Source of the DNA: Halopseudomonas oceani
GTDB taxonomy: Bacteria; Pseudomonadota; Gammaproteobacteria; Pseudomonadales; Pseudomonadaceae
DNA: 64,000 bases
Assembly (NCBI RefSeq): GCF_002903165.1
Contig: NZ_PPSK01000019.1
Span: forward strand, 1-64,000
Reading direction: 5' to 3'
The first letter of the stretch is position 1. Each line of letters opens with the position of its first letter. This document shows positions 47,087-60,649 of this stretch, one piece after another. The translations under genes and the position numbers were made by a program. The notes below the pieces were generated by a model. It was not told the origin of the DNA. It worked only from the letters and a program-made list of their open reading frames with translations, and ran no database searches.

Positions 47087-47974
47087 ATGGCAGCACAGAT
47101 GGAGCCAACACGGTTGGCCGTGTTGATTGATGCCGACAACGCCAATCCGGCGATTGTTGAAGGGCTGCTGGCCGAGGTGGCCAAGTTGGGTGTGGCGAGC
47201 GTAAAGCGTATTTATGGCGACTGGACTACGCCGAGTCTGGGCAAGTGGAAAGCGTCGCTGCTGGAACACTCGATTCAGCCGATCCAGCAGTTTGCCTACA
47301 CCTCCGGCAAGAACGCGACCGACAGCGCGATGATCATCGATGCCATAGACCTGCTGTACTCGGCGGACCTTGGCGGCTTCTGCATTGTTTCCAGCGACAG
47401 TGATTTCACCCGTCTGGCCGCGCGCCTGCGTGAGTCGGGCAAGGTGGTGTATGGCTTTGGTGAGCAGAAAACACCCAAGCCTTTTGTTGCCGCCTGCGAC
47501 CGCTTTATCTACACCGAAATCTTTACCCAGCATCCGGAGAACGCCGAAACGGTTATTCAGCGTCGCTCTGCTCAGGAGCTGCGACAGGACGCCAAGCTCT
47601 GCACTCTGTTGCGTCAGGCAATCGAAGCGGCCTCCGACGATGATGGCTGGGCCAACCTCGGCCCGGTTGGCAGCCAGCTGGCCAAGCAGATGCCGGAATT
47701 TGACCCGCGCAACTATGGCTACAGCAAGTTCAGTGGGCTAGTGGAAGGTATTGGCCTGTTCACCCTGCGACGGGAAAACAACCTGCTGCTGGTCAAGGAC
47801 CAGCGCCCGGGCAAGAAGGGCTGCCCCCAGCGGTTACCAGCTCCCGAATGGTATGCCGTGGGTGTCGATATAGTGCTGGGCGTTGGGGCTGGGTGGGCGG
47901 TAGAACTCGCCGTTGGATTCACCGTTGTAGGGGCCGACGGGGTTGATTTCGCCTTCCACTCGTCCTATTTCTAG
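47087..47974 (+). CDS. NYN-domain protein with LOTUS-like region and an aberrant 3' end
   Basis: 295 residues. The NYN (PIN-like) domain runs from LAVLIDADNANPAIVEGLL to about residue 150 with the acidic residues of a ribonuclease fold (IDADN, TDSAMIIDAIDLL, SSDSDFTRLA). A LOTUS/OST-HTH-like region follows (about 165-240, ending FTLRRENNLLLVKDQ). The remaining 50 or so residues, from about 47825, are antisense to the convergent DUF2931 gene and look unrelated to the family, so the original stop seems lost. The real domain architecture probably ends near residue 245. AGGAG precedes the ATG. Confidence 0.8.
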   Translation: MAAQMEPTRLAVLIDADNANPAIVEGLLAEVAKLGVASVKRIYGDWTTPSLGKWKASLLEHSIQPIQQFAYTSGKNATDSAMIIDAIDLLYSADLGGFCIVSSDSDFTRLAARLRESGKVVYGFGEQKTPKPFVAACDRFIYTEIFTQHPENAETVIQRRSAQELRQDAKLCTLLRQAIEAASDDDGWANLGPVGSQLAKQMPEFDPRNYGYSKFSGLVEGIGLFTLRRENNLLLVKDQRPGKKGCPQRLPAPEWYAVGVDIVLGVGAGWAVELAVGFTVVGADGVDFAFHSSYF

Positions 47975-48508
47975 TGGCTCCAGGCAAGTGCCCAAAAGCC
48001 AGAATTTCGCGATGCCGCCGGGCGCGACGCCGATGGCGATGAACTTTCGATATTGATACACATAATCGTTGTCGTACCGGCAGAAGACCCGCCTTTCAGC
48101 GCGCATTTCATCTCGGACCCACTGCGGTATGTCGATGGATGCCCGATAGGCTTCTGGTTCTGCGAGTGATTGCCAGCGTACAGTGATCTTTTCGGGCAAG
48201 TCTATTCCGGACATTGGAAAGCTTGAACCGGGGCCAGGGCGCTCTGGCCAGCCGCGTGGGTCGCCTTTGTTGTCCGGAGGTGTTCTTGTGGAGGCGATTC
48301 CGCCAAACACATCTTCGTACATCAAGTCATTCACATCCGTTAGGTCTACCTGCTCTACCCAGGCCTCCATATAGTCGGGAGCTCCCAAGCCTATGTACCA
48401 GGCGCGGTACGGTAGATCCGGCTTGGGCGGAAATACTTCAATTGGTTTGCTGTGCTGGCAACCGCCAAGGACTAGCGCTGTGAGTATGATCAGAGTGCGC
48501 ACAATCAT
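47834..48508 (-). CDS. DUF2931 lipoprotein, probable immunity partner of the Tle1 lipase
   Basis: 224 residues with a lipoprotein signal (MIVRTLIILTALVLGGC, lipobox LGGC, lipidated Cys17). The rest is of the DUF2931 type, with RAWYIGLGAPDYMEAWVEQVDLTD and KFWLLGTCLEPLEIGRVEG. Such lipoproteins are commonly encoded next to DUF2235 phospholipase effectors, and a periplasmic lipoprotein is where a Tle1 toxin would have to be blocked. Its start overlaps the effector stop by 4 bases. The 3' end overlaps the NYN gene by 141 bases. Confidence 0.78.
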   Translation of the reverse strand: MIVRTLIILTALVLGGCQHSKPIEVFPPKPDLPYRAWYIGLGAPDYMEAWVEQVDLTDVNDLMYEDVFGGIASTRTPPDNKGDPRGWPERPGPGSSFPMSGIDLPEKITVRWQSLAEPEAYRASIDIPQWVRDEMRAERRVFCRYDNDYVYQYRKFIAIGVAPGGIAKFWLLGTCLEPLEIGRVEGEINPVGPYNGESNGEFYRPPSPNAQHYIDTHGIPFGSW

Positions 48509-50391
48509 ACTGGGTACCCTGTCTGTGGTTTATCTGGGTAGATGGCGCGGATAAAATCATGGCGCGGTTTGTTGGCCATAAAGCCTTTTACCGGCACCCA
48601 GTTGGCCGAGCTGTGGATATAGCGGCTATGCAGGAAGCGCTTTTCCTCGTCGCTTAGGTTCGGGTTGTGTCCGGCCATGCACGCGGAAAATACCTTATCT
48701 GCGATTGGACCAAGGTCTGACGGAATAGCGAAGCGCTTATCCGTGGCGTTTATCTGATTGAGCGGCACGCCAGAGCTTGACGCCTTGGCATGCATGACCT
48801 TGAGGGATACACGAGACAGCTCACCCCGGACGCTGCGGATAATCGACAGAGTCAGCAGCACTTTGGCGTTCGGGCGGCTACCAACCACTTCTTCATGTCG
48901 CTCAAAGTGCCCGTCGCCCGGTAGTCCACGTGTCCGGAAGCGCTCTTCCTCCTGCTGCCTGACCCGCCAGGCCCGGGAGCGAATCAGTTGCTGGCGCGCC
49001 GGGCCGTCCAATGGGTAGTGATTGCTGAGAAAGAAGACCGGTCTGCCGATCACCAAGCGCTCGTAGGACAGCGTTGGATAGCCGCCACCGAGGTTGGAAT
49101 GGACGCCGGGTAGCACCAGTTCCTCATGGGCTTCGTCTACTCGGTTCAGGCTGAAGTTATGGCGGTGTTCATCGGCTGCGGTGAGATGCACCACCTTGCG
49201 GGCGCAGTCGGGTGGCAGGTATAGATTCACGCCTGGATTATAGTCGTCACCGACGCTGAGGTGTCCTTGAGCTGGGTCGCCGATGGCCGCGACAGTATCG
49301 AACAGGCCGATAAAGTTTATGCTGATGCACTCCTCAATGGAAAAGCCGCCAGCAAACACAGGGCTCTTGGTATCAAGGTTGTTTGTGAGTATGCCGTGAT
49401 TGGCTTTCAGCACCTCATTTGCGAAGTGTCGAGCCGCGGCGGCGCCGCGACTGAAGCCGAAGATATCGAACTCGATTTTCTCAACACATATGGACGGGTT
49501 GTTAGTAGCCAGCACCTGTAGGCTCTCAACTATCCGTTCAGGACTCTGCTCAACCCGCTCAACAACCCCTGTCTCGCCTTGCCCAAATGCCATGCCCATG
49601 GTGGCGTCTTCCTCGCCTGCTTTGCTGCCAGCACCTTCAATGTAAACCTTCACTGCGGCTTGCTTGGCATTAGCTTGTAACTGCTGCCGCGAGTCGTCGC
49701 GGTACAACCGAAACAACAACGCCACATTACTCAACTCATTCCCGTAACTGTTATCCGGGCGTTGATCAAAAAAAACGTCACCGTTGCTGTCGTTATAACC
49801 GTGGGACTGGCAGAAGCGGGTGACGGCCTCCAGACCGTCGGGGCCGAGTTGGGCGAGGTCTTCGCGGCGGCATTGGGCGGTGAGCGAAGCATTGGGCAGG
49901 TTGTTGAGGGTGCCGTCGAAGAACATGCCGACGCGCAGGGTGATGCGTTGCTTCTGCGGCAGTTCGGTTTCTTCTTCCTCCTCTTCTTCCTCGCGCTCCA
50001 GCGGCACGGCGTTGCTGGCGCCGTGCTGCACTGGAACGTCAAAAAGCGCCCGCAGGGCGCGCACCAGGCCGGTGATGATCATGGCTTGAGCCGCGCGGCT
50101 ATCGGCGCTGCCGGGTTGATTGCCAATAAGAACGGTCGGGGAGCCGGCGGTGATGGAGTCGCCGTGGGCGCCAACGCTACCGAGCACGGCGGTGGGGCGG
50201 CCGTTGATGAGCACGTTGCTGATCAACTGGCTGCTGAGCGGGCTGCCGCACTGGGTGATGTCACCCTGACGGGCAGCGGGCTTGCCGTTGATCAGTACGT
50301 CAGCGGCGCCGCTGATCAGGCGCTGGCTACCGTGGCCGGTCTGCGGGCATTGTGTGGGGTCGCCGAGTCGGGCGGCGGGTTTGCCGGACAT
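48505..50391 (-). CDS. PAAR-domain Tle1-family (DUF2235) type VI secretion phospholipase effector
   Basis: 628 residues. An N-terminal PAAR domain (about 1-92, MSGKPAARLGDPTQCPQTGHGS... with repeated VLINGKPAARQGD) would sharpen a VgrG spike. A Glu-rich linker (133-142) leads to the DUF2235/Tle1 catalytic domain: nucleophile motif GFSRG with Ser314, then NFIGLFDTVAA with Asp365 and PGVHSNLGGGY with His431 as the likely triad. Such enzymes cleave phospholipids of rival cells. No VgrG or other secretion gene is in the window, so this is an orphan module. Base composition of the catalytic part appears less G+C rich than the PAAR part. Confidence 0.88.
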   Translation of the reverse strand: MSGKPAARLGDPTQCPQTGHGSQRLISGAADVLINGKPAARQGDITQCGSPLSSQLISNVLINGRPTAVLGSVGAHGDSITAGSPTVLIGNQPGSADSRAAQAMIITGLVRALRALFDVPVQHGASNAVPLEREEEEEEEETELPQKQRITLRVGMFFDGTLNNLPNASLTAQCRREDLAQLGPDGLEAVTRFCQSHGYNDSNGDVFFDQRPDNSYGNELSNVALLFRLYRDDSRQQLQANAKQAAVKVYIEGAGSKAGEEDATMGMAFGQGETGVVERVEQSPERIVESLQVLATNNPSICVEKIEFDIFGFSRGAAAARHFANEVLKANHGILTNNLDTKSPVFAGGFSIEECISINFIGLFDTVAAIGDPAQGHLSVGDDYNPGVNLYLPPDCARKVVHLTAADEHRHNFSLNRVDEAHEELVLPGVHSNLGGGYPTLSYERLVIGRPVFFLSNHYPLDGPARQQLIRSRAWRVRQQEEERFRTRGLPGDGHFERHEEVVGSRPNAKVLLTLSIIRSVRGELSRVSLKVMHAKASSSGVPLNQINATDKRFAIPSDLGPIADKVFSACMAGHNPNLSDEEKRFLHSRYIHSSANWVPVKGFMANKPRHDFIRAIYPDKPQTGYPV

Positions 50392-50493
50392 GCCATTTCC
50401 CTTTGGCTGCAGGTGTTCCTGCGCTGATCCTGCGGGGGCGGTGGCGGGTTGGACAATCGACTATTGGGGGGAATGTGCGGTGCTTGGCATCTG

Positions 50494-50538
50494 CCGGTGC
50501 AATGCGTTGCCGGGGTGGCCGGCAACGCATTGCACCGG
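50494..50538. repeat. Perfect 20-bp inverted repeat at the end of the jetC-like gene
   Basis: The arms 50494-50513 (CCGGTGCAATGCGTTGCCGG) and 50519-50538 are exact reverse complements, separated by GGTGG. The right arm ends at the base next to the jetC stop codon. No T-run flanks it on either strand, so it is not a standard intrinsic terminator. It would form an extremely stable RNA hairpin. Confidence 0.9.
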
Positions 50539-53500
50539 TCAGATCACGTCTTCCATAAACTCCAGCGCACCCTGCTGACGAATCACCCGGCGATGCTGGG
50601 CCCACAGCTCGGCCACGCGTTCGCGGTTGAGCTGCTGGCGGTCGAGCAGCACGCGGGTGTTCAGCTCGCCGACCGGTTGGCTGCTGGGCACCTTGCTGAA
50701 CACAAACTGGTTGCTCACCAGCTCCAGGAAGGGGCCAGCCTTGCTGGTCGGCATGATGAAGATCAGCTGCAGGCCGAGGGTTTCGGTCAGGTAGGCGATA
50801 ACTTCACGCGAACGGATTTCATCCATGTGCATGAAGGCTTCGTCGACGATCACCATACGCAGGTGGCTGTCGCCCTCGTTGAAGCGGAAGGCGCTGGTCA
50901 CGGCGGCGGCGCGGATGATGTAAGCCGGGGTTTCCAGCTGACCACCGGAGCCGGTGCCGTATTCGCTCAGTCGGATCGGCGACTTGCCTTCCGGGTGCTT
51001 GAGGATGTCGTAGCGGCGGTAGCGACGGTAGTCGCTGATGCGCTCCAGTTCGCGCAGAGCCTGCTGTTCGTCGCCATCAAGCAGCAACGCCAGCAGCTGA
51101 TCGCGCACCGCGGCCGAACGCTCGGACAGGGCGTCGTCGAACAGGCTGGTGCCGTCGCCCAGGTTCGGCATCTGGATCAGTTCGCGGAAGAAATCCCAGT
51201 AGGCCTTGTACTCGGGCAGCCAGTCCCAGTCGAACTGGAAGCGCTCGCGGTCGGCACCGAAGCGGTGGTGCTCCAGCTCCTTGTTCAGTTGCTCGAGCGT
51301 TCGACGGCCGTCGTTGATGGCCTGATGAATCTCGTGGCAAAGGTCGCTGACGAAGGTCGTGTTGAAGCTGTCGCGCAGGCTCGCGAGCTGTTCCTGCTTG
51401 GCCAGCAACACGTTGTTGCGCAGGCGGTTGTGCAGGTTGTCGAGCTGTTGATGCAGCGCGCCGACATGGCGGAAGAAGGCCAGGCTGTGCAGTTCCGCCG
51501 GGGTGTCGGCGAGTACCTGATCGGCGGGCTGGGCCTGCTCGTTGTAGTGCTCGATGGCGCGCTGCAGGTCGGCAACCTGACGGTGCAGGCTGCTGGTCAG
51601 CGCCTGGGCGTCGGCAATGAAGTCGAACTGGCCGCCACGCTGTTCGAGCATGGTGTCGAGCTGCTCCAGCCGCGCCTGCGGGTCGAGCCCCGGCACTTGG
51701 GCGGCAGCATCCAGAAGATACTGCTCGGCCTTGTCGCGGGCGTCGAGCAGGGCATCGCTCTGGTCGGCGAAGTGGGTAATGCGTTGGCCGATGCTGACCT
51801 GCTTCTCCTGCAGACGGCCAAGTTGCACGTCCAGCTCCTTGCCGTGCAGTTCCAGCTCGCGGTGGCGCAGGGTCACGCGCTGTTGTTCGGATTCCAGATC
51901 GTGGTGCGCGCCTAGGTCAAGCGCTTCCAGTTGCTGTTCGACTTCGCGCAGCTGGCGCTGGCTGTCGAGCAGCTCGCTGGCGCGGGCGGCGTAGTCGAGC
52001 GGCGCGATCTGACCTAATTGACGGGCCAGTTCGCGCAGGGCTTCCAGTTCGCGGCGCAGTTGATGCTGCTGCAGATCCAGATCGTGCAGGCGCTGCTCCT
52101 GCGCGCGCAGGTTGCGTTCGCGGGCGGCGGCGCCGAATACCAGCTGGCTGTCGTCGATGTCGCAGCGAAACAGCGCGTAGTTGCCCGAGCCCATACCGTC
52201 GCGGGTGATGCCGCGGCGGGTTTGGCGCAGGGCACCGGCGTCGGCAACCCGGGCCACGGTGGCGTATGACGCCTGCAGGTAGTATTCGGCGACGCGATGG
52301 CTGAAGCGCATGACCTGCAGGATCGAGTCGTTCGGCAGGCTGATGCGTTCGGCGTCCTGCTTGGCCTTGCTGCCCTGAATCACCCGCGCGCGGTTGCGCT
52401 CGCGGCTGTTCATCTGGCGTACGATGCGGATCGCTTCGGCTTCATATTCGGGCTCGACCAGAATGGCGTAGCGGCTGCCGCCGATGTAGCCCTCGATCGC
52501 CATCTGCCAATCCGGGTCGAGTACCTCGACGTGGTCGCAGAGTACCCGCGGATCGGCCTGCGGGCATTGTTTGCGGATCGCCAGCAGCGCTTCCTCGACA
52601 TACGCCGGATACGTCACACGGCTGCTCTGCAGGGTGCTGATCTGGTGGCGAATCTGGCTGACCTGGCGATCAAGATTGTTCAGCGCGCTGGTGCGTTCCT
52701 GCACCAGCCGGTCGACCCGCTGCAGCAGGCTGGCGCCTTCACTGTCCTGCTCGCGCAGGCGCTCAGCCAGCTGGTTGTGTGCGCGCTGCTGACTGCGAAT
52801 GGCATCCAGACCGGCGTCCAGCGGGGTCAGGTCGATCCAGTCGCGGGCCAGCAGTTGATTGAGGTCGGCAACCGGCTCGCGCTCGGCGGCCAGCACTGCG
52901 GCGCTGGCCTCGCGCCAGCCACGGCTGGCCAGCTGTGGAATGGCCTGACTCAGGCTGTGCTGGGCCAGCAGCGCACCGGCGGATTGCAGCGCCACCAGGT
53001 TACGGTCGCGCTGATGGGCCTGGGTCAGCAGGCCGGGTACGGCGCTGCGCAGTTGCTCGCTCAGCTGGCGCTGGCGCTGCTCCAGTTGGTCCTTGTTCTG
53101 CAGCGCCGGAATGCCCTGACGGCGGGCTTCCAGTTGCACCAGTTCGTGGTGGGCCTGGGCCAGGCGCTCGGTGGTCAGGCGCTGGTCTTCCTGCAGCGCT
53201 TCGAGCTGACTGGCGAGCTGTTGCTGTTCTTGTTTGGCCGCCAGATAGCCCTGCTGGTTGTTCTGCCAGGCTTGCGCGGCGGCGGCGTACTCCAGCCCGG
53301 TGCGCTCCAGCCAGCTGTCCAGATACTGCGTGGTCTGGCTGGTGGTCAGCGACAGCAGCTCAACCGCCTGACGCACGCGCGCCGCTTCCTGCTCCATGCC
53401 ATGCACGGTGCGCAGCAGCTCGCGGATGCGCTTGATGGTGTCGCCAAACTCGCGCGGCTCCAGCACTTCCTCGGCGACAAACTGGTCGATGGATTTAACC

Positions 53501-54174
53501 GGTTTGTAGGCCATGAAGTTGGCAAAGGTGCGCGCGGCGTTCTTCGCTTCGCGGGTCGACAGCGCATCGCGGCGGCCGCGCAGGGCGGCGTACAGGCGGG
53601 CCAGGTAGGCGCTCTTGCGGTCGTAGACTTCGATCTGCTGGGCGCTGAACTGCTTGCGCAGCAGGCCCGGCAGCTCGGTCACGGCGATCACGTGGCGGCC
53701 GTCATCCTGCTCGCGCAGAAAGTGCGACAGCGACAGCATCTCGCCGGGGATGATCATCAGCAGCAGTTCGTCCTGCCGTGCCTGCCGGCTGCTGCCGGCG
53801 GCGTCGAGATGGGCGCGTACGCCGATCACCGCGGTAAAGGGTTCGGCGGTCTCGCCACGGGTCGGATGGAACACCCCGGCGATGTAGCCGTCGGTGTCCC
53901 AGGGTCGGGCGTAGGCGCCATCGTCACAGCCGAGCACGTAGGAGGCGAGGGTGCGCACCTGCTTGCCGCCACGGCCACGCTGGGTGGTTTCGTCCTGTCC
54001 CGGGTTGTAGTTGAACAGGTTGTCGTGGGCGGCGGTCATCAGCGTCTGCAGGGCATCCGCTGCGGTGGTCTTGCCGGAGCCGTTGCCGCCGGAGAACAGG
54101 TTGACCGGGCCGTATTCCAGTTCTTCGACCGGCAGGTTGCCCCAGTTGACGGTAATCGAACGCTTCAGATACAT
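50539..54174 (-). CDS. JetC-like SMC ATPase of a Wadjet/Mks-type complex
   Basis: 1211 residues. Walker A GGNGSGKTT (Lys35) at the N-terminus, long coiled coils (about 240-500 and 690-1000) around a central hinge-like domain, an ABC signature region YGTGSGGQLETPAY near 1073-1083 and Walker B MVIVDEAFMHMD with Asp1111-Glu1112. This is a MukB/MksB/JetC class SMC motor. With JetA and JetB partners it would extrude DNA loops. Its start overlaps the jetB stop by one base. MksB in P. aeruginosa is shorter (from memory), so the Jet name is used, with caution. Confidence 0.85.
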   Translation of the reverse strand: MYLKRSITVNWGNLPVEELEYGPVNLFSGGNGSGKTTAADALQTLMTAAHDNLFNYNPGQDETTQRGRGGKQVRTLASYVLGCDDGAYARPWDTDGYIAGVFHPTRGETAEPFTAVIGVRAHLDAAGSSRQARQDELLLMIIPGEMLSLSHFLREQDDGRHVIAVTELPGLLRKQFSAQQIEVYDRKSAYLARLYAALRGRRDALSTREAKNAARTFANFMAYKPVKSIDQFVAEEVLEPREFGDTIKRIRELLRTVHGMEQEAARVRQAVELLSLTTSQTTQYLDSWLERTGLEYAAAAQAWQNNQQGYLAAKQEQQQLASQLEALQEDQRLTTERLAQAHHELVQLEARRQGIPALQNKDQLEQRQRQLSEQLRSAVPGLLTQAHQRDRNLVALQSAGALLAQHSLSQAIPQLASRGWREASAAVLAAEREPVADLNQLLARDWIDLTPLDAGLDAIRSQQRAHNQLAERLREQDSEGASLLQRVDRLVQERTSALNNLDRQVSQIRHQISTLQSSRVTYPAYVEEALLAIRKQCPQADPRVLCDHVEVLDPDWQMAIEGYIGGSRYAILVEPEYEAEAIRIVRQMNSRERNRARVIQGSKAKQDAERISLPNDSILQVMRFSHRVAEYYLQASYATVARVADAGALRQTRRGITRDGMGSGNYALFRCDIDDSQLVFGAAARERNLRAQEQRLHDLDLQQHQLRRELEALRELARQLGQIAPLDYAARASELLDSQRQLREVEQQLEALDLGAHHDLESEQQRVTLRHRELELHGKELDVQLGRLQEKQVSIGQRITHFADQSDALLDARDKAEQYLLDAAAQVPGLDPQARLEQLDTMLEQRGGQFDFIADAQALTSSLHRQVADLQRAIEHYNEQAQPADQVLADTPAELHSLAFFRHVGALHQQLDNLHNRLRNNVLLAKQEQLASLRDSFNTTFVSDLCHEIHQAINDGRRTLEQLNKELEHHRFGADRERFQFDWDWLPEYKAYWDFFRELIQMPNLGDGTSLFDDALSERSAAVRDQLLALLLDGDEQQALRELERISDYRRYRRYDILKHPEGKSPIRLSEYGTGSGGQLETPAYIIRAAAVTSAFRFNEGDSHLRMVIVDEAFMHMDEIRSREVIAYLTETLGLQLIFIMPTSKAGPFLELVSNQFVFSKVPSSQPVGELNTRVLLDRQQLNRERVAELWAQHRRVIRQQGALEFMEDVI

Positions 54175-54848
54175 CAGTTGTTCTCCTCGGCGGACGGCTG
54201 GTCTTCGCTGTTTTCAATCTCGGGGCTGGCGAGCTGGGCCAGCGCGCTGTCGGTCACCAGGCTGATGATGCCCGGGCGGATGGTCAGCCAGGCTTCGCCG
54301 CTGTCCAGTTCGGCATCGCTGGGGCTGCGGATCAGCCGCAGCTGGCGCAGGCGGCGCAGCAGGTTGCGGCGCTCGCTCTGCTGTTCCGGCAGTGAACGGC
54401 CGAGCAGGTTGCGACTGCTCAGGTTGAGCGCTTCGAGCGACAGCATGACCTGACCAAACTCGTCGACCTGACCTTCGCGCAGGGCCTTGTCGTACTCGGC
54501 GCGCAGCACCAGAATCAGCGCCACTTCCTGCTGGTTCAGGCGCTCGCGCAGGCCGCTGCCGAAGCTGTTGTCGGCGTCGACCAGGCCGGGCACTTCCGCG
54601 CCCGGCGGGAACACCCGGACCAGATTGAAGCGCGGCTCGTGCAGCACGCGGATGCGCAGCACCGAGAGATAGTCCTCGACCAGTTCGGCGGCCTGCAGGT
54701 AGCGGTCGTAGAGCTCGGCCTCGCGGTTGCTTTCGTCGCGGCAGAGCACGCCGCGGTCGAGCAGGCGGATCATCAGCTCGGAAAAGTCCTCGGCACTCAG
54801 GCCGCGTTCGTTGAGGTGGTGGTCCAGCGCGTCACGCATGTTCGTCAT
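54174..54848 (-). CDS. JetB-like DUF4194 protein (MukE/MksE-type kite subunit)
   Basis: 224 residues if started at ATG 54848 (MTNMRDALDHHL); ATG 54839 and 54884 are alternatives, and only a weak GGAA is nearby. The DUF4194 family is indicated by LIRLLDRGVLCRDESNREAELYDRYLQAAELVEDYLSVLRIRVLHEPRFNLVRVFPPG-like sequence. Kite proteins bridge the kleisin and DNA in Mks/Jet complexes. Its start lies inside the end of the jetA gene, so expression is coupled. The C-terminal tail is acidic. Confidence 0.82.
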   Translation of the reverse strand: MTNMRDALDHHLNERGLSAEDFSELMIRLLDRGVLCRDESNREAELYDRYLQAAELVEDYLSVLRIRVLHEPRFNLVRVFPPGAEVPGLVDADNSFGSGLRERLNQQEVALILVLRAEYDKALREGQVDEFGQVMLSLEALNLSSRNLLGRSLPEQQSERRNLLRRLRQLRLIRSPSDAELDSGEAWLTIRPGIISLVTDSALAQLASPEIENSEDQPSAEENN

Positions 54849-56271
54849 GTTCCAGATCGATGATGAAGCCGTCACGGCGATCAAAATAGGTTTCGTTGCT
54901 GATGGTCTCGCCGCTGGGCTCGATGCGCACGCGCAGGCCGCTGGCGGCGTGCTCGGCGCTGGCCAGCGCGATCACATGGCTGAGCGCGAGCAGGTCGTTG
55001 GCGCTGTTGACCGGCAGGTCGCGGGTGTTGAGCTGGCTGCCGTTGCCGAGGGCGGCGCGCAGGTAGGTGCGCAGGCCACTGGCGTTGACGTTGAAGGCCT
55101 TGTCGAGCAACTGATTGACTGCCAGCGTGCGCAAGGTGTCGCCTTCCGGCGCGTCGAGGGTTTCCATCAGGCTGTGCACCGGCGGGCGCTCGCGGCGTTC
55201 GCGCAGCTTCACCTGGCCGGGATCGACCAGCGCCAGATTGACCACCGCCATCTCTTCACCTGCAGCGCTCAGACGTTTGGCCTGCTCTTCGGCGGGCAGG
55301 GCGGACAGCTCGCGGCACAGGCCGACGATGTCGCTGTGCTTCTGGCTGTGCAGGTAGCTGAGCTGACGGATGATGATATCGGCGCGCTGGGTGAAGCTCT
55401 GCAGGGTGCGGCGAAGGGCTGGCAGCATGATGTCGGCGGCGTTGCGCAGGCAGCCTTCGATGCCGTCCAGCAACTGCCAGAGAATCGAGCTGCGCTCGTC
55501 AACGAGAAGGTCCGGCGCCAGGCGGCGCAGCTCGCGCTCGGCCTCGGCCTTCCACTCGCGTGGCTTGCGGCGAATACGGGCGATCACATCCTGAATGCGC
55601 TCGCGGTGTTTTTCGACGCTGTCGGCCGACAGGCGCACTGCCAGATCGGGCTGGAAGCGCCGCTCCATAAAGTCGAAAAACTGATCGCTGGCCTGCTGCA
55701 CCAGTTGCTGCGCTTCGACCTCGCGTACCAGCTGGCGCTTGCGCTCTTCCAGCTCCGCGATGATGTCGGTGAAGTCGGCAATGATCCGCTCGGCGTATTC
55801 GTGGGCATCGAGCAGGTCATACACCTCGCCGTGCTCGGCAAACGCCGACAGCGCGTTGAGGGTGTTGCGGGTGTTGCGGTGGCGGGTACGGGTGTTGTGC
55901 CCGTGCGCCTCGGCCAGCGACTGGGCAAACAGCCGGCCCATGCGGCTGAAAGGGTAGGTTGATTGGAAGGTGGCCTGATCCACCTGACGTTCCAGCCAGC
56001 CGTTTTCAATCAGGCTGGTGAGAATCCAGCTGGCCTGCTCGCGGTTGCTCTTGAAGCGGCTGGCGTCTTCGTCGTCGCTTTCCAGCAGCGGCGCGCGTTC
56101 CAGCGCTTCACTGAAGATATCCAGTACTTGTTCGCGCTTGAGTGATTCGCCGTAATCGGCCCGGGCGCTGTACAGCCGCTCGTGCAGCAGGCGCAGGCAC
56201 TCGACAATCTGTTCGCGGTATTTGCTGGTGAGCGGGCGGAAGAACTGCAGTCGCTCGTTGGTAAAAAACAT
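54832..56271 (-). CDS. JetA-like kleisin (DUF5716/MukF-type subunit)
   Basis: 479 residues starting MFFTNERLQFFRPLTSKYREQIVECL. A winged-helix N-terminal part is followed by helical, coiled-coil-rich sequence (for example DIIAELEERKRQLVREVEAQQLVQQAS) as in kleisins of the JetA family. It would link JetC heads and hold JetB. First gene of the three-gene unit; the ribosome-binding site is weak. No JetD (toprim nuclease) gene follows JetC in the window. Confidence 0.83.
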   Translation of the reverse strand: MFFTNERLQFFRPLTSKYREQIVECLRLLHERLYSARADYGESLKREQVLDIFSEALERAPLLESDDEDASRFKSNREQASWILTSLIENGWLERQVDQATFQSTYPFSRMGRLFAQSLAEAHGHNTRTRHRNTRNTLNALSAFAEHGEVYDLLDAHEYAERIIADFTDIIAELEERKRQLVREVEAQQLVQQASDQFFDFMERRFQPDLAVRLSADSVEKHRERIQDVIARIRRKPREWKAEAERELRRLAPDLLVDERSSILWQLLDGIEGCLRNAADIMLPALRRTLQSFTQRADIIIRQLSYLHSQKHSDIVGLCRELSALPAEEQAKRLSAAGEEMAVVNLALVDPGQVKLRERRERPPVHSLMETLDAPEGDTLRTLAVNQLLDKAFNVNASGLRTYLRAALGNGSQLNTRDLPVNSANDLLALSHVIALASAEHAASGLRVRIEPSGETISNETYFDRRDGFIIDLEHDEHA

Positions 56272-56447: not shown

Positions 56448-58301
56448 TTACAGCTGCGGGGTCCAGGTCACGCTCAGCAGTGCCGCGCGGCCTTGCTCCT
56501 TATAGCTGTAGTCGATAGATGGAGCGGGCCAAGGGCCGGTGGCCCGCTGATAGGTGCCAAGATGGTAGTCGCGGTCGAGCACATTGTTGATCTTCAGATC
56601 CAGGCGGGTTGAAGCGGTCGCCTGCCAGTTGGCGCGCAGGTCGAGCGTGCCGTAACCAGCCAGCGTGCTGCTGTTGGCAGCATCGGCAAAGCGCTCGCTG
56701 AATAGCGCCCAGGTTGCGCCCACGCCGAAGTCACCAAACTGACGATCCAGGTCGCTGGTCAGTGTGCGTTTTGCACGCAGTTGCAGGGTTTTGCCTGTCT
56801 GGCGGTCGCGCGGGTCGATGAAGCTGGCGGCGGTCCGCGAGGCCCAGCCCATGACGTCGGTGCTCATGGCCAGCTCCAGGCCGTTGATGCGCGCTTCGTC
56901 GACGTTGTTCATCTGGAACGTGCTGGAGTCCCAGACAATCAGATCCTTGATGTCGGTGCGATAAAGAGAGGCTTCCCACTGGCTGTTCAGCAAGTCTCCA
57001 CGCCATTGCAGCTCGAAGGTACGAGAGTGTTCAGGGTCCAGGTCTGGGTTGCCACCCCAGCCCGGCGGCGCGTAGAGGTCGTTGAACGTCGGTGCACGGA
57101 AGGCGGTGGCATAGCTGACAATCCATTGCTGGCTGTCTCCGCTGGGGATGGCCAGTGCGGCGTTCCAGGTGTTGTGCTCACCAAAATGCTGATTGTCGTC
57201 GTGGCGCACGCCCAGCTCGGTGCTGATGCGTTCCCCAGTCCAGCTGTGCTGCGCGAACAGGCCGATGTTTTCGCGACGGTCCTTGGTGTAGGCGTTGGTA
57301 GAGTCCAGTTTGTCGCGTTGCCAGTCAGCCCCTACGTTGAGCTGCTGGTCAGCAGACAGGTCGATGTAGTTCAACCAACTGACAGAGTGGCGCTCGGTTT
57401 TAATCTGGCCGTCATTGAAGCGAGAGCCGACGGTTTTGTTACGGTCTTCGCTGCTGCCCAGCTCCAGGCGGCTGCGCCAGCCGGTGGTCAGCTGGCCTTG
57501 CAGGTAGGCAGCATAGCCGCGTACGCGGAACTGGTTTTCCGGGTTGGCCGGGTTGAACTCGTAGGCGTCGTCAAACTCGCTTTTGCCATTCTGTTCGTTG
57601 ACGCTGAGACCTGCGCTCCAGTCCTCGTTGAAGGAGTGATCAAAGCGGGCGAAATAGCTCTTGGTGCGCTGGCTGTCCTCATCGCGGTCGTTGCCAAGGT
57701 TATCCTCGGTGAGGTCAAAGCCTTCTGTTTCATTCAGGGTTGCGCCGAGGATGAAGCGGCTGTTGTCGTTGCCGCCGCTGATATCAATGCTGCGCTCGAA
57801 TGTGTGGTTGCTACCAACTCCCAGTCGAATGGTTGGCTGCAGGCCTGTTTGACCCTGCCGGGTGAATATCTGGATTACGCCGCCGATGGCGTCGGCGCCA
57901 TAGACCGCCGAGCGTGGACCGCGTACCACTTCGACGCGCTCGATATTGTCGATGTTCAGGTAATCAAGCCGCGCGCCGCCCGTGGTTGCTGAGGCGATAC
58001 GTTGTCCGTCTACCAGTACCAGAGTCTGGTCAGTTTTGCCGCCGCGAACGAAGTACGACAGCACGCCGCCATTGCTGTTTAGCTGAACACCCGGAACGCG
58101 GCGAAGCAGTTCCGGCACGCTGCGTGCCTGCAGGCGCTCGATGTCGTCCCGGTCAAAGACGGTGTTGGCTGCCAGCGCCGATTCGCGTGGTTGCTCAAGG
58201 CGGGACGCAGTGATGATGGTTTCAGGCAGATTGAGAGCATCGTTGGCCTGAGCAACAGCGCAGGCCAACAGGCCGGGGATGATCAGCAGTGACTTGTTCA
58301 T
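56448..58301 (-). CDS. btuB: TonB-dependent vitamin B12 receptor BtuB
   Basis: 617 residues with a signal peptide (MNKSLLIIPGLLACAVAQA). A TonB box (ETIITASR, 27-34), a plug domain (RLQARSVPELLRRVPGVQLNSNGGVLSYFVRGGKTDQTLVLVDG) and a 22-strand beta-barrel region ending AALLSVTWTPQL are seen. It takes cobalamin across the outer membrane using TonB energy. GAGGAAACC precedes the ATG and is part of a hairpin. Control by the cobalamin riboswitch upstream confirms the ligand class. Confidence 0.95.
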   Translation of the reverse strand: MNKSLLIIPGLLACAVAQANDALNLPETIITASRLEQPRESALAANTVFDRDDIERLQARSVPELLRRVPGVQLNSNGGVLSYFVRGGKTDQTLVLVDGQRIASATTGGARLDYLNIDNIERVEVVRGPRSAVYGADAIGGVIQIFTRQGQTGLQPTIRLGVGSNHTFERSIDISGGNDNSRFILGATLNETEGFDLTEDNLGNDRDEDSQRTKSYFARFDHSFNEDWSAGLSVNEQNGKSEFDDAYEFNPANPENQFRVRGYAAYLQGQLTTGWRSRLELGSSEDRNKTVGSRFNDGQIKTERHSVSWLNYIDLSADQQLNVGADWQRDKLDSTNAYTKDRRENIGLFAQHSWTGERISTELGVRHDDNQHFGEHNTWNAALAIPSGDSQQWIVSYATAFRAPTFNDLYAPPGWGGNPDLDPEHSRTFELQWRGDLLNSQWEASLYRTDIKDLIVWDSSTFQMNNVDEARINGLELAMSTDVMGWASRTAASFIDPRDRQTGKTLQLRAKRTLTSDLDRQFGDFGVGATWALFSERFADAANSSTLAGYGTLDLRANWQATASTRLDLKINNVLDRDYHLGTYQRATGPWPAPSIDYSYKEQGRAALLSVTWTPQL

Positions 58302-58307
58302 TGGTTT

Positions 58308-58330
58308 CCTCAAAAGTTCGGCTTTTGAGG
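58308..58330 (-). promoter_or_regulatory. Hairpin sequestering the btuB ribosome-binding site
   Basis: On the - strand CCTCAAAAG pairs over nine bases, without error, with CTTTTGAGG around a CCGAA loop. The 3' arm contains the GAGG Shine-Dalgarno sequence, ending seven bases before the ATG. It is the likely expression platform by which the cobalamin riboswitch blocks translation. Confidence 0.8.
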
Positions 58331-58439
58331 AGGGCGGGAAGTCAGGAGGCAGGCCACGGCGCGGCGACTGCACGCTGACCGGTGACGCCCTCCGCGACAC
58401 CTCAGCAGACAGCGGGCACGGCAGTGCCGTGGCTGTACT

Positions 58440-58671: not shown

Positions 58672-60555
58672 TCAGCCAAGTCGGCTGAGACGGGTACGGA
58701 TTGCGTTTTCGATGCCGGCTGCATCAAGCCCGCACTCGGCGAGCATCTCAGCGGGCTTGGCGTGCTCGACATAGAGATCGGGCAGGCCGAGGTTGAGCAC
58801 CGGCAGGTTGATGCCTTCGGCCAGCAACCACTCGTTGACTGCGCTGCCGGCACCGCCCATGACTGCGTTTTCTTCGACGGTGACCAGCAGGTCATGGCTG
58901 GCGCTTAGCTCCGCAATCAGCTGGGTGTCCAGCGGTTTGACGAAGCGCATGTTGGCGACGGTCGCGTTGAGCGCCTCGGCGGCCTTGCTGGCGTGCTGGT
59001 GCAGGGTGCCGAAACACAAAATGGCGACCTGTTCACCCCGGCGGGTTACCGCGCCCTTGCCGATTGGCAACGGTTCCAGTGCCGGGTCAATCGGTACGCC
59101 GGGGCCGGTGCCACGCGGATAACGCACGGCGGCCGGGCCTTCGTGCAGGAACCCGGTGGTCAGCATTTGACGGGTTTCGTTCTCGTCGGCCGGTGCCATG
59201 ATCAGCATGTTCGGCAGGCAGCGCAGGTACGACAGATCAAAGCTGCCGGCGTGGGTCGGGCCGTCCTCGCCAACCAGGCCGGCTCGGTCGATGGCGAACA
59301 GCACATCCAGATTTTGTACCGCAACGTCGTGGATCAGCTGATCGTAGCCGCGCTGCAGGAAGGTCGAGTAGATGGCAACCACCGGCTTGGCACCTTCGCA
59401 AGCCATGCCAGCTGCGAGGGTGACAGCGTGCTGCTCGGCGATGGCAACATCGAAGTAGCGCTTGGGAAAACGTTCGGAGAAGGCGATCAGATCCGAGCCT
59501 TCCTTCATTGCCGGGGTAATGCCGATCAGGCGCTCGTCCTGCTCGGCCATGTCGCACAGCCACTGGCCAAAGATGTTGGAGAACTTGGGTTTGCTGACGC
59601 CATTGCTCGGGGCCTTGGGTTCCAGCTTGGTGATCGCATGGTAGCCGATCGGGTCCGCCTCAGCGGGCGAGAAGCCCTTGCCCTTCTGGGTGATTACATG
59701 GAGGAACTGCGGGCCCTTGAGCTCGCGCATGTTCTTCAGGGTGCGCACCAGGGTTGGCAGGTCGTGGCCATCGATCGGGCCGATATAGTTCCAGCCCAGT
59801 TCCTCGAACAGGGTGCCCGGCACCAGCATGCCCTTGGCGTGCTCTTCGGTCTTGCGTGCCAGCTCCCAGGCCGGCGGGATCTTCGCCAGTACCTTTTTGC
59901 TGCCTTCACGCATGTGCGAGTAGGTGCGGCTGGAGAGAATTTTGGCCAAGTAGTTGGACAGGCCGCCGACGTTGCGTGAGATCGACATGTCGTTGTCGTT
60001 CAGCACCACCAGCATGTTGGCCTCGACTTCCGAGGCGTGGTTCAGTGCTTCAAAAGCCATGCCTGCGGTCAGCGCGCCATCGCCGATTACTGCGACGGTG
60101 CGGCGGTCCAGCCCCTGCAGCCCGGCAGCGATAGCCATGCCCAGGCCGGCGCTGATCGAGGTGCTGGAGTGGCCGACGCCAAAGGTGTCGTAGGGGCTTT
60201 CGCTGCGGCGCGGAAAGGCCGCGAGGCCGTTTTTCTGGCGCAGGCTGGCCATCTGTTCGCGGCGGCCGGTGAGGATCTTGTGCGGGTAGGCCTGATGGCC
60301 TACGTCCCACAGCAGGCGATCATCCGGCGTGTGGTAGACATAGTGCAATGCAATGGTCAGCTCAATGACGCCGAGGCCAGCACCAAAATGACCGCCGGTC
60401 TGGCCCACACTCCAGAGCAGAAAGGCGCGCAGTTCATCGGCCAGTTCTGGCAACTGACTTTCGTCGAGCGCGCGCAGCGACTCGGTGTCGTCGACACAGT
60501 CCAGCAGCGGTGTGCTGGGGCGATGGAGCGGGATTTCGTGGAAAGTGCTGGGCAT
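58672..60555 (-). CDS. dxs: 1-deoxy-D-xylulose-5-phosphate synthase
   Basis: 627 residues from ATG 60555 ([16 protein letters not shown]), the length usual in Pseudomonas. The thiamine diphosphate site is seen as [17 protein letters not shown]...NDNDMSIS, with the transketolase-like central domain ([18 protein letters not shown]) and C-terminal domain. It makes DXP from pyruvate and glyceraldehyde-3-phosphate for isoprenoids, thiamine and pyridoxal. It follows ispA by 94 bases and was next to the BtuF-like gene in the ancestral order. Confidence 0.98.
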
Positions 60556-60649
60556 CAAACAAGGCTCTGGGTGCCACTGTCGGTGGCGGGAAAACAAGGG
60601 CGCAGTTTAACCGATGCAGGGCAATAGCCCAACTGCGCGCAGGGGTATC

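Follow-up and report, generated by a model that had tools for sequence, protein, structure and literature searches.

The locus described here raises the question of which function can be served by a Wadjet-like SMC complex whose operon contains no nuclease gene. The window, that is the whole stretch of DNA analysed, consists of 64,000 nt of Halopseudomonas oceani (NZ_PPSK01000019.1, assembly GCF_002903165.1, positions 1-64,000); ORF analysis and reading of the sequence revealed in it a jetA-jetB-jetC operon at 50539-56271 on the minus strand, with complete, overlapping genes and intact frames. The three genes and their upstream neighbours are the following.

54832-56271, minus strand: jetA, kleisin subunit, 479 aa (PF18982 JetA, 98 bits; PADLOC JetA1, 761 bits).
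54174-54884, minus strand: jetB, KITE subunit, 236 aa from a TTG start (PF13835 DUF4194, 107 bits; PADLOC JetB1, 298 bits).
50539-54174, minus strand: jetC, SMC ATPase, 1211 aa (Pfam SbcC_Walker_B; PADLOC JetC1, 1810 bits).
56448-58400, minus strand: TonB-dependent receptor gene, neighbour upstream of the jet operon and outside it.
58672-60597, minus strand: dxs, upstream, identity read from the sequence and not from a library scan.

The products of all three jet genes matched the type I models of PADLOC (JetA1, JetB1 and JetC1). The stop codon of jetB and the start of jetC overlap as TGATG; for jetB itself, the ATG at 54839, suggested by alignment and overlapping the jetA stop by 8 nt, is probably to be preferred over the TTG. 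In JetC the ATPase motifs are intact: Walker A GGNGSGKT (29), signature SGGQ (1076) and Walker B VIVDEA (1108). Searches of the PDB with a single JetC or JetA sequence gave no useful match, and profiles were needed for JetC to detect the E. coli JetC 8as8 (E 3e-9), a value that marks the window as distant in sequence from the solved type I Wadjets. The AlphaFold model of JetA (mean pLDDT 67) matches solved MukF and Wadjet JetA chains, and the best matches of the JetB model (mean pLDDT 78) are the Wadjet JetBs of P. aeruginosa PA14 and E. coli, followed by MukE. Motifs and predicted structures thus identify an SMC-kleisin-KITE complex, with an ATPase JetC, a kleisin fold in JetA and a KITE fold in JetB; together with the gene order and the PADLOC matches, these are the features shared with the type I Wadjets of E. 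coli GF4-3 and P. aeruginosa PA14. JetC proteins 98-99% identical to that of the window are found in H. pachastrellae, H. aestusnigri and H. abyssi, and, of the Halopseudomonas loci whose upstream sequence is long enough, most have dxs beside the jet operon, a neighbourhood that fits a fixed chromosomal site and vertical inheritance of jetABC.

However, type I Wadjet requires the TOPRIM nuclease JetD in the operon, and here a hairpin and then a lipase gene come after jetC, with no jetD in the locus or in the genome. JetD was sought by sequence profiles only, and Pfam JetD_C misses some JetDs (e.g. that of genome G287): PF09983 (JetD_C) had no match in the H. oceani assembly (4.16 Mb, rated 100% complete), and a profile built from 14 JetDs of the same JetABC family found nothing in this genome at E<=0.1. 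The preliminary description had reported complete, overlapping jetABC genes without a jetD downstream; the intact frames, the Pfam and PADLOC matches and the missing JetD profile match bear this out, and the whole-genome search that it had proposed, carried out with PF09983 and the family profile, located no jetD elsewhere. Because the defining part of the system was looked for and is missing, the JetABC of the window is classed here, on sequence criteria, as a JetABC core of Wadjet descent and not as a Wadjet system. The region after jetC contains the following elements.

50494-50538, minus strand: perfect 20-bp hairpin (5-nt loop) immediately adjoining the jetC stop and lacking a U-tract, z -4.55.
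48505-50391, minus strand: PAAR-Tle1 phospholipase gene, putative T6SS effector (PF05488 and PF09994), at the jetD position.
47834-48508, minus strand: DUF2931 lipoprotein-like gene (PF11153, 101 bits).
47087-47974, plus strand: NYN and OST-HTH (LOTUS) gene, convergent, found directly after jetC in some other JetD-less relatives.

The hairpin occupies the place where jetD begins in relatives; it is present in a single copy in the window and is kept with small changes across the window's clade. The pair formed by the Tle1 lipase and the DUF2931 gene, the latter probably the immunity partner of the former to judge from its position, is found after jetC specifically in this clade, where it separates jetC from the NYN/LOTUS gene. 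The latter comes directly after jetC in H. formosensis and Pseudomonas sp. WN033. Between close species this likely T6SS effector-immunity pair diverges much faster than jetABC (dN 0.12-0.23 and 0.002-0.011, respectively).

Within this JetABC family the usual start of jetD is at the stop codon of jetC, as seen in Alcanivorax, Halieaceae, Cellvibrionaceae, H. pelagia and H. pertucinogena; a JetD HMM derived from the ORFs beside jetC places it there in more than 20 relatives. It is an ORF of 370-400 aa with a Pfam JetD_C match, whose start often overlaps the jetC stop as ATGA, and the TOPRIM acidic residues E242, D305 and D307 (H. pelagia numbering) are invariant in the JetD alignment. Within Halopseudomonas, jetC of this family is present in 24 of 37 genomes; jetD follows it in 5 and is absent in the other 19. 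The loss of jetD, one of the possibilities raised earlier, is therefore upheld for the window, since relatives have the gene at the jetC stop and H. oceani has none elsewhere. No remnants of jetD were found in the JetD-less loci when all frames were searched with the JetD HMM.

The absence is recurrent. A tree of the concatenated JetABC of 53 loci requires 10 changes in the presence or absence of JetD, at least 9 of them being forced by supported branches, with gains and losses not fully separable; a loss-only model would need 12 losses in a clade of 44 rows. Even close sisters differ, P. neustonica (L051) being without jetD and G017 (L008) with it. The JetDs of loci L064 and L073 are nearly alike (tree distance about 0.11), more so than their JetABCs, which are not sister groups (about 0.23); from the sequences, jetD seems to have been exchanged between loci, so that some of the JetD-less states may have arisen recently. 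Five further Wadjet loci of the genus (in G001, G005 and G036, and two in G031) have all kept JetD, so that the loss belongs to this JetABC family and not to the genus.

Some arrangements are of a different kind. Two Bermanella MAGs carry a distant JetD-like gene after jetC, on the opposite strand (L057, 5894-6898, minus; L071, 13709-14728, minus; PF09983 34-35 bits). In G287 (L115) a JetD-like ORF (7130, minus; 222 bits to the family HMM), not reported by Pfam JetD_C, lies upstream of and divergent from jetA (8377, plus). Further JetABC loci of the family elsewhere in the class, L113 (G198) and L118 (G441), have no adjacent jetD; G441 has a weak JetD_C match about 300 kb from its JetABC locus. 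The class-wide count of JetB loci without JetD_C is a rough base rate only, given contig ends and the JetDs missed by this model.

The sequence immediately 3' of the jetC stop differs among JetD-less lineages, and the genes found there are unrelated: MFS transporter, Mrp antiporter subunits, AraC, NADAR, SDR, FGE-sulfatase, Tle1 and others. A shared replacement effector was sought across the JetD-less loci and none was found, no gene being common to all of them. Thus the suggestion in the preliminary description that the complex uses a different effector finds no support locally, and a loss of jetD caused by insertion of the toxin module is not supported either, since many JetD-less lineages have no toxin and carry other genes after jetC. 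Because these genes differ between lineages, the toxin module is at most one of several things that replaced jetD.

The lipase gene and the DUF2931 gene stand at precisely the point at which jetD starts in relatives, and the operon could therefore also be read as what is left of a defence system that the arrival of the T6SS lipase module put out of action and that is now decaying. This is very improbable: besides the many JetD-less lineages in which the lipase is missing, the reading is largely refuted by the state of jetABC, which is intact in every JetD-less locus with full sequence. Pairwise Nei-Gojobori estimates, for which the ORF starts of some relatives are approximate, gave dN/dS values between the window and four JetD-less members of its clade of 0.016-0.035 for jetA, 0.029-0.068 for jetB and 0.019-0.024 for jetC, which do not exceed those of JetD-bearing pairs (0.058-0.063, 0.07-0.29 and 0.05-0.11, respectively). 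Hence, jetABC without JetD is under strong purifying selection, with no sign of relaxed constraint. Synonymous divergence between the window and the nearest species is lower in jetABC (0.07-0.35) than in dxs (0.46-0.67), perhaps by recombination or codon constraint. A scan for changes specific to JetD-less branches gave only a marginal excess, at JetA 115-129 (p 3e-5 among 1594 tests), on which no claim is based, and revealed no clear loss of a JetD-contact surface. A conserved LYDR of JetB is present both with and without JetD; the IFDR motif of JetB, a reported JetD contact, could not be placed by sequence, as the JetB profiles matched no solved JetB.

A nuclease-free operon of kleisin, KITE and SMC genes is also the plan of the P. 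aeruginosa-type MksBEF, and jetABC might accordingly be an ordinary ortholog of that condensin which never had a JetD. Of all the explanations considered this is the least credible. The canonical MksB is shorter (944 aa in G119 and G133; a 917-aa ORF after MksE in G013 and G020) than the 1211-aa JetC and far from it in a head-domain tree, where both 944-aa MksBs fall in a clade of their own on long branches, the exact depth being unsure; conversely, JetC of the window clusters in the trees with JetC of JetD-bearing relatives. The comparison with housekeeping MksB, proposed together with the first description of the locus, therefore shows no grouping of the two, and the complexes are not orthologous. 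Canonical MksE (PF21980) is found in 97 of 148 Pseudomonadaceae genomes, mostly with E about 1e-41, and has no match in the H. oceani genome, in which Smc is present. Close JetC homologs are confined to Halopseudomonas among the same 148 genomes. Within the genus strong MksE matches occur only in G013, G020 and G024, all three without this jetC, and the weaker matches in G005, G031 and G036 coincide with the JetBs of their other Wadjets. The mutual exclusivity of JetC and MksE is weak (Fisher p 0.037, uncorrected for phylogeny; 0.085 in high-quality genomes only), and ten genomes of the genus have neither this JetC nor a strong canonical MksE, so that the function is dispensable.

The two main rival explanations keep the complex in defence. 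In one, JetABC would recruit another nuclease, encoded elsewhere in the genome, for which the intact and conserved complex would still be available. The NYN/LOTUS gene, a possible RNase, is a neighbour of jetC or of the lipase at 8 of the JetD-less loci, and the JetD-bearing loci of Halopseudomonas were not seen to have it in their flanks; however, it is convergent and outside the operon, it is missing beside jetC in other JetD-less lineages, which makes it a weak partner lead, the JetD-less loci share no common gene, and the searches of the H. oceani genome turned up no kind of JetD. Recruitment in trans is therefore rather unlikely. In the other, JetABC alone would restrict plasmids or phages without cutting, for instance by trapping or compacting small circles. 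Precedents are the JetABC of Wadjet, the motor by which a circle is recognised before JetD comes into play (PMC10586767, PMC12647877), and human Smc5/6, which silences circles without a nuclease (PMC10586767); however, restriction in B. subtilis needed all four subunits (PMC10586767) and no genomic result obtained here speaks in favour, which leaves this an unlikely explanation as well. The MksBEFG/EptABCD systems of Corynebacterium and Mycobacterium belong to the same complex type, MksG corresponding to JetD; unlike the JetABC of the window, these systems have kept their nuclease, MksG, and are active in plasmid restriction (PMC10123090).

Repeated loss of the nuclease, together with a motor kept under strong selection, is most simply explained by a DNA-loop extruder that is useful in itself. 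The reading preferred here, with a probability of roughly 60%, is that the nuclease was lost in place from a type I Wadjet core, which has remained as a stand-alone, MksBEF-like loop extruder with a condensin-like role. Two JetC ATPases, the kleisin JetA and the KITE protein JetB would form a dimeric complex, which would load onto DNA and extrude loops as MukBEF and MksBEF do; without JetD, no cut would be made once a circle has been fully reeled in, and the activity would help to organise and segregate the chromosome alongside Smc-ScpAB. Loop extrusion, the condensin role and the loss of plasmid cleavage are thus predicted by analogy with these relatives. A more far-reaching version, in which the Halopseudomonas complex was converted in place several times into a condensin replacing the missing MksBEF, so that the genus would offer matched pairs of the states before and after, is put forward only tentatively.

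An origin of MksBEF by loss of JetD was proposed earlier for P. aeruginosa, and MksBEF is the only studied precedent; compared with it, the loss in Halopseudomonas is younger, recurrent and placed inside a JetD-bearing family. A literature search found no paper naming both Halopseudomonas and Wadjet, and no functional data for the genus in the papers searched.

The pattern in these marine bacteria suggests a defence system turning into a chromosome organiser. Both MukBEF and MksBEF are said to have arisen from plasmid-defence complexes, and to our knowledge only the ancient end points of this process were known before; what is new here is that intermediates of JetD loss survive within one genus. 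Tools that call Wadjet from jetABC alone would count systems that are probably unable to cut plasmids. Since close relatives carry nuclease-free and nuclease-bearing forms at one and the same site of the chromosome, the transition is open to experiment: the role of JetABC without JetD, the restoration of plasmid cleavage by the JetD of a relative, and the reason why the motor was kept can all be tested.
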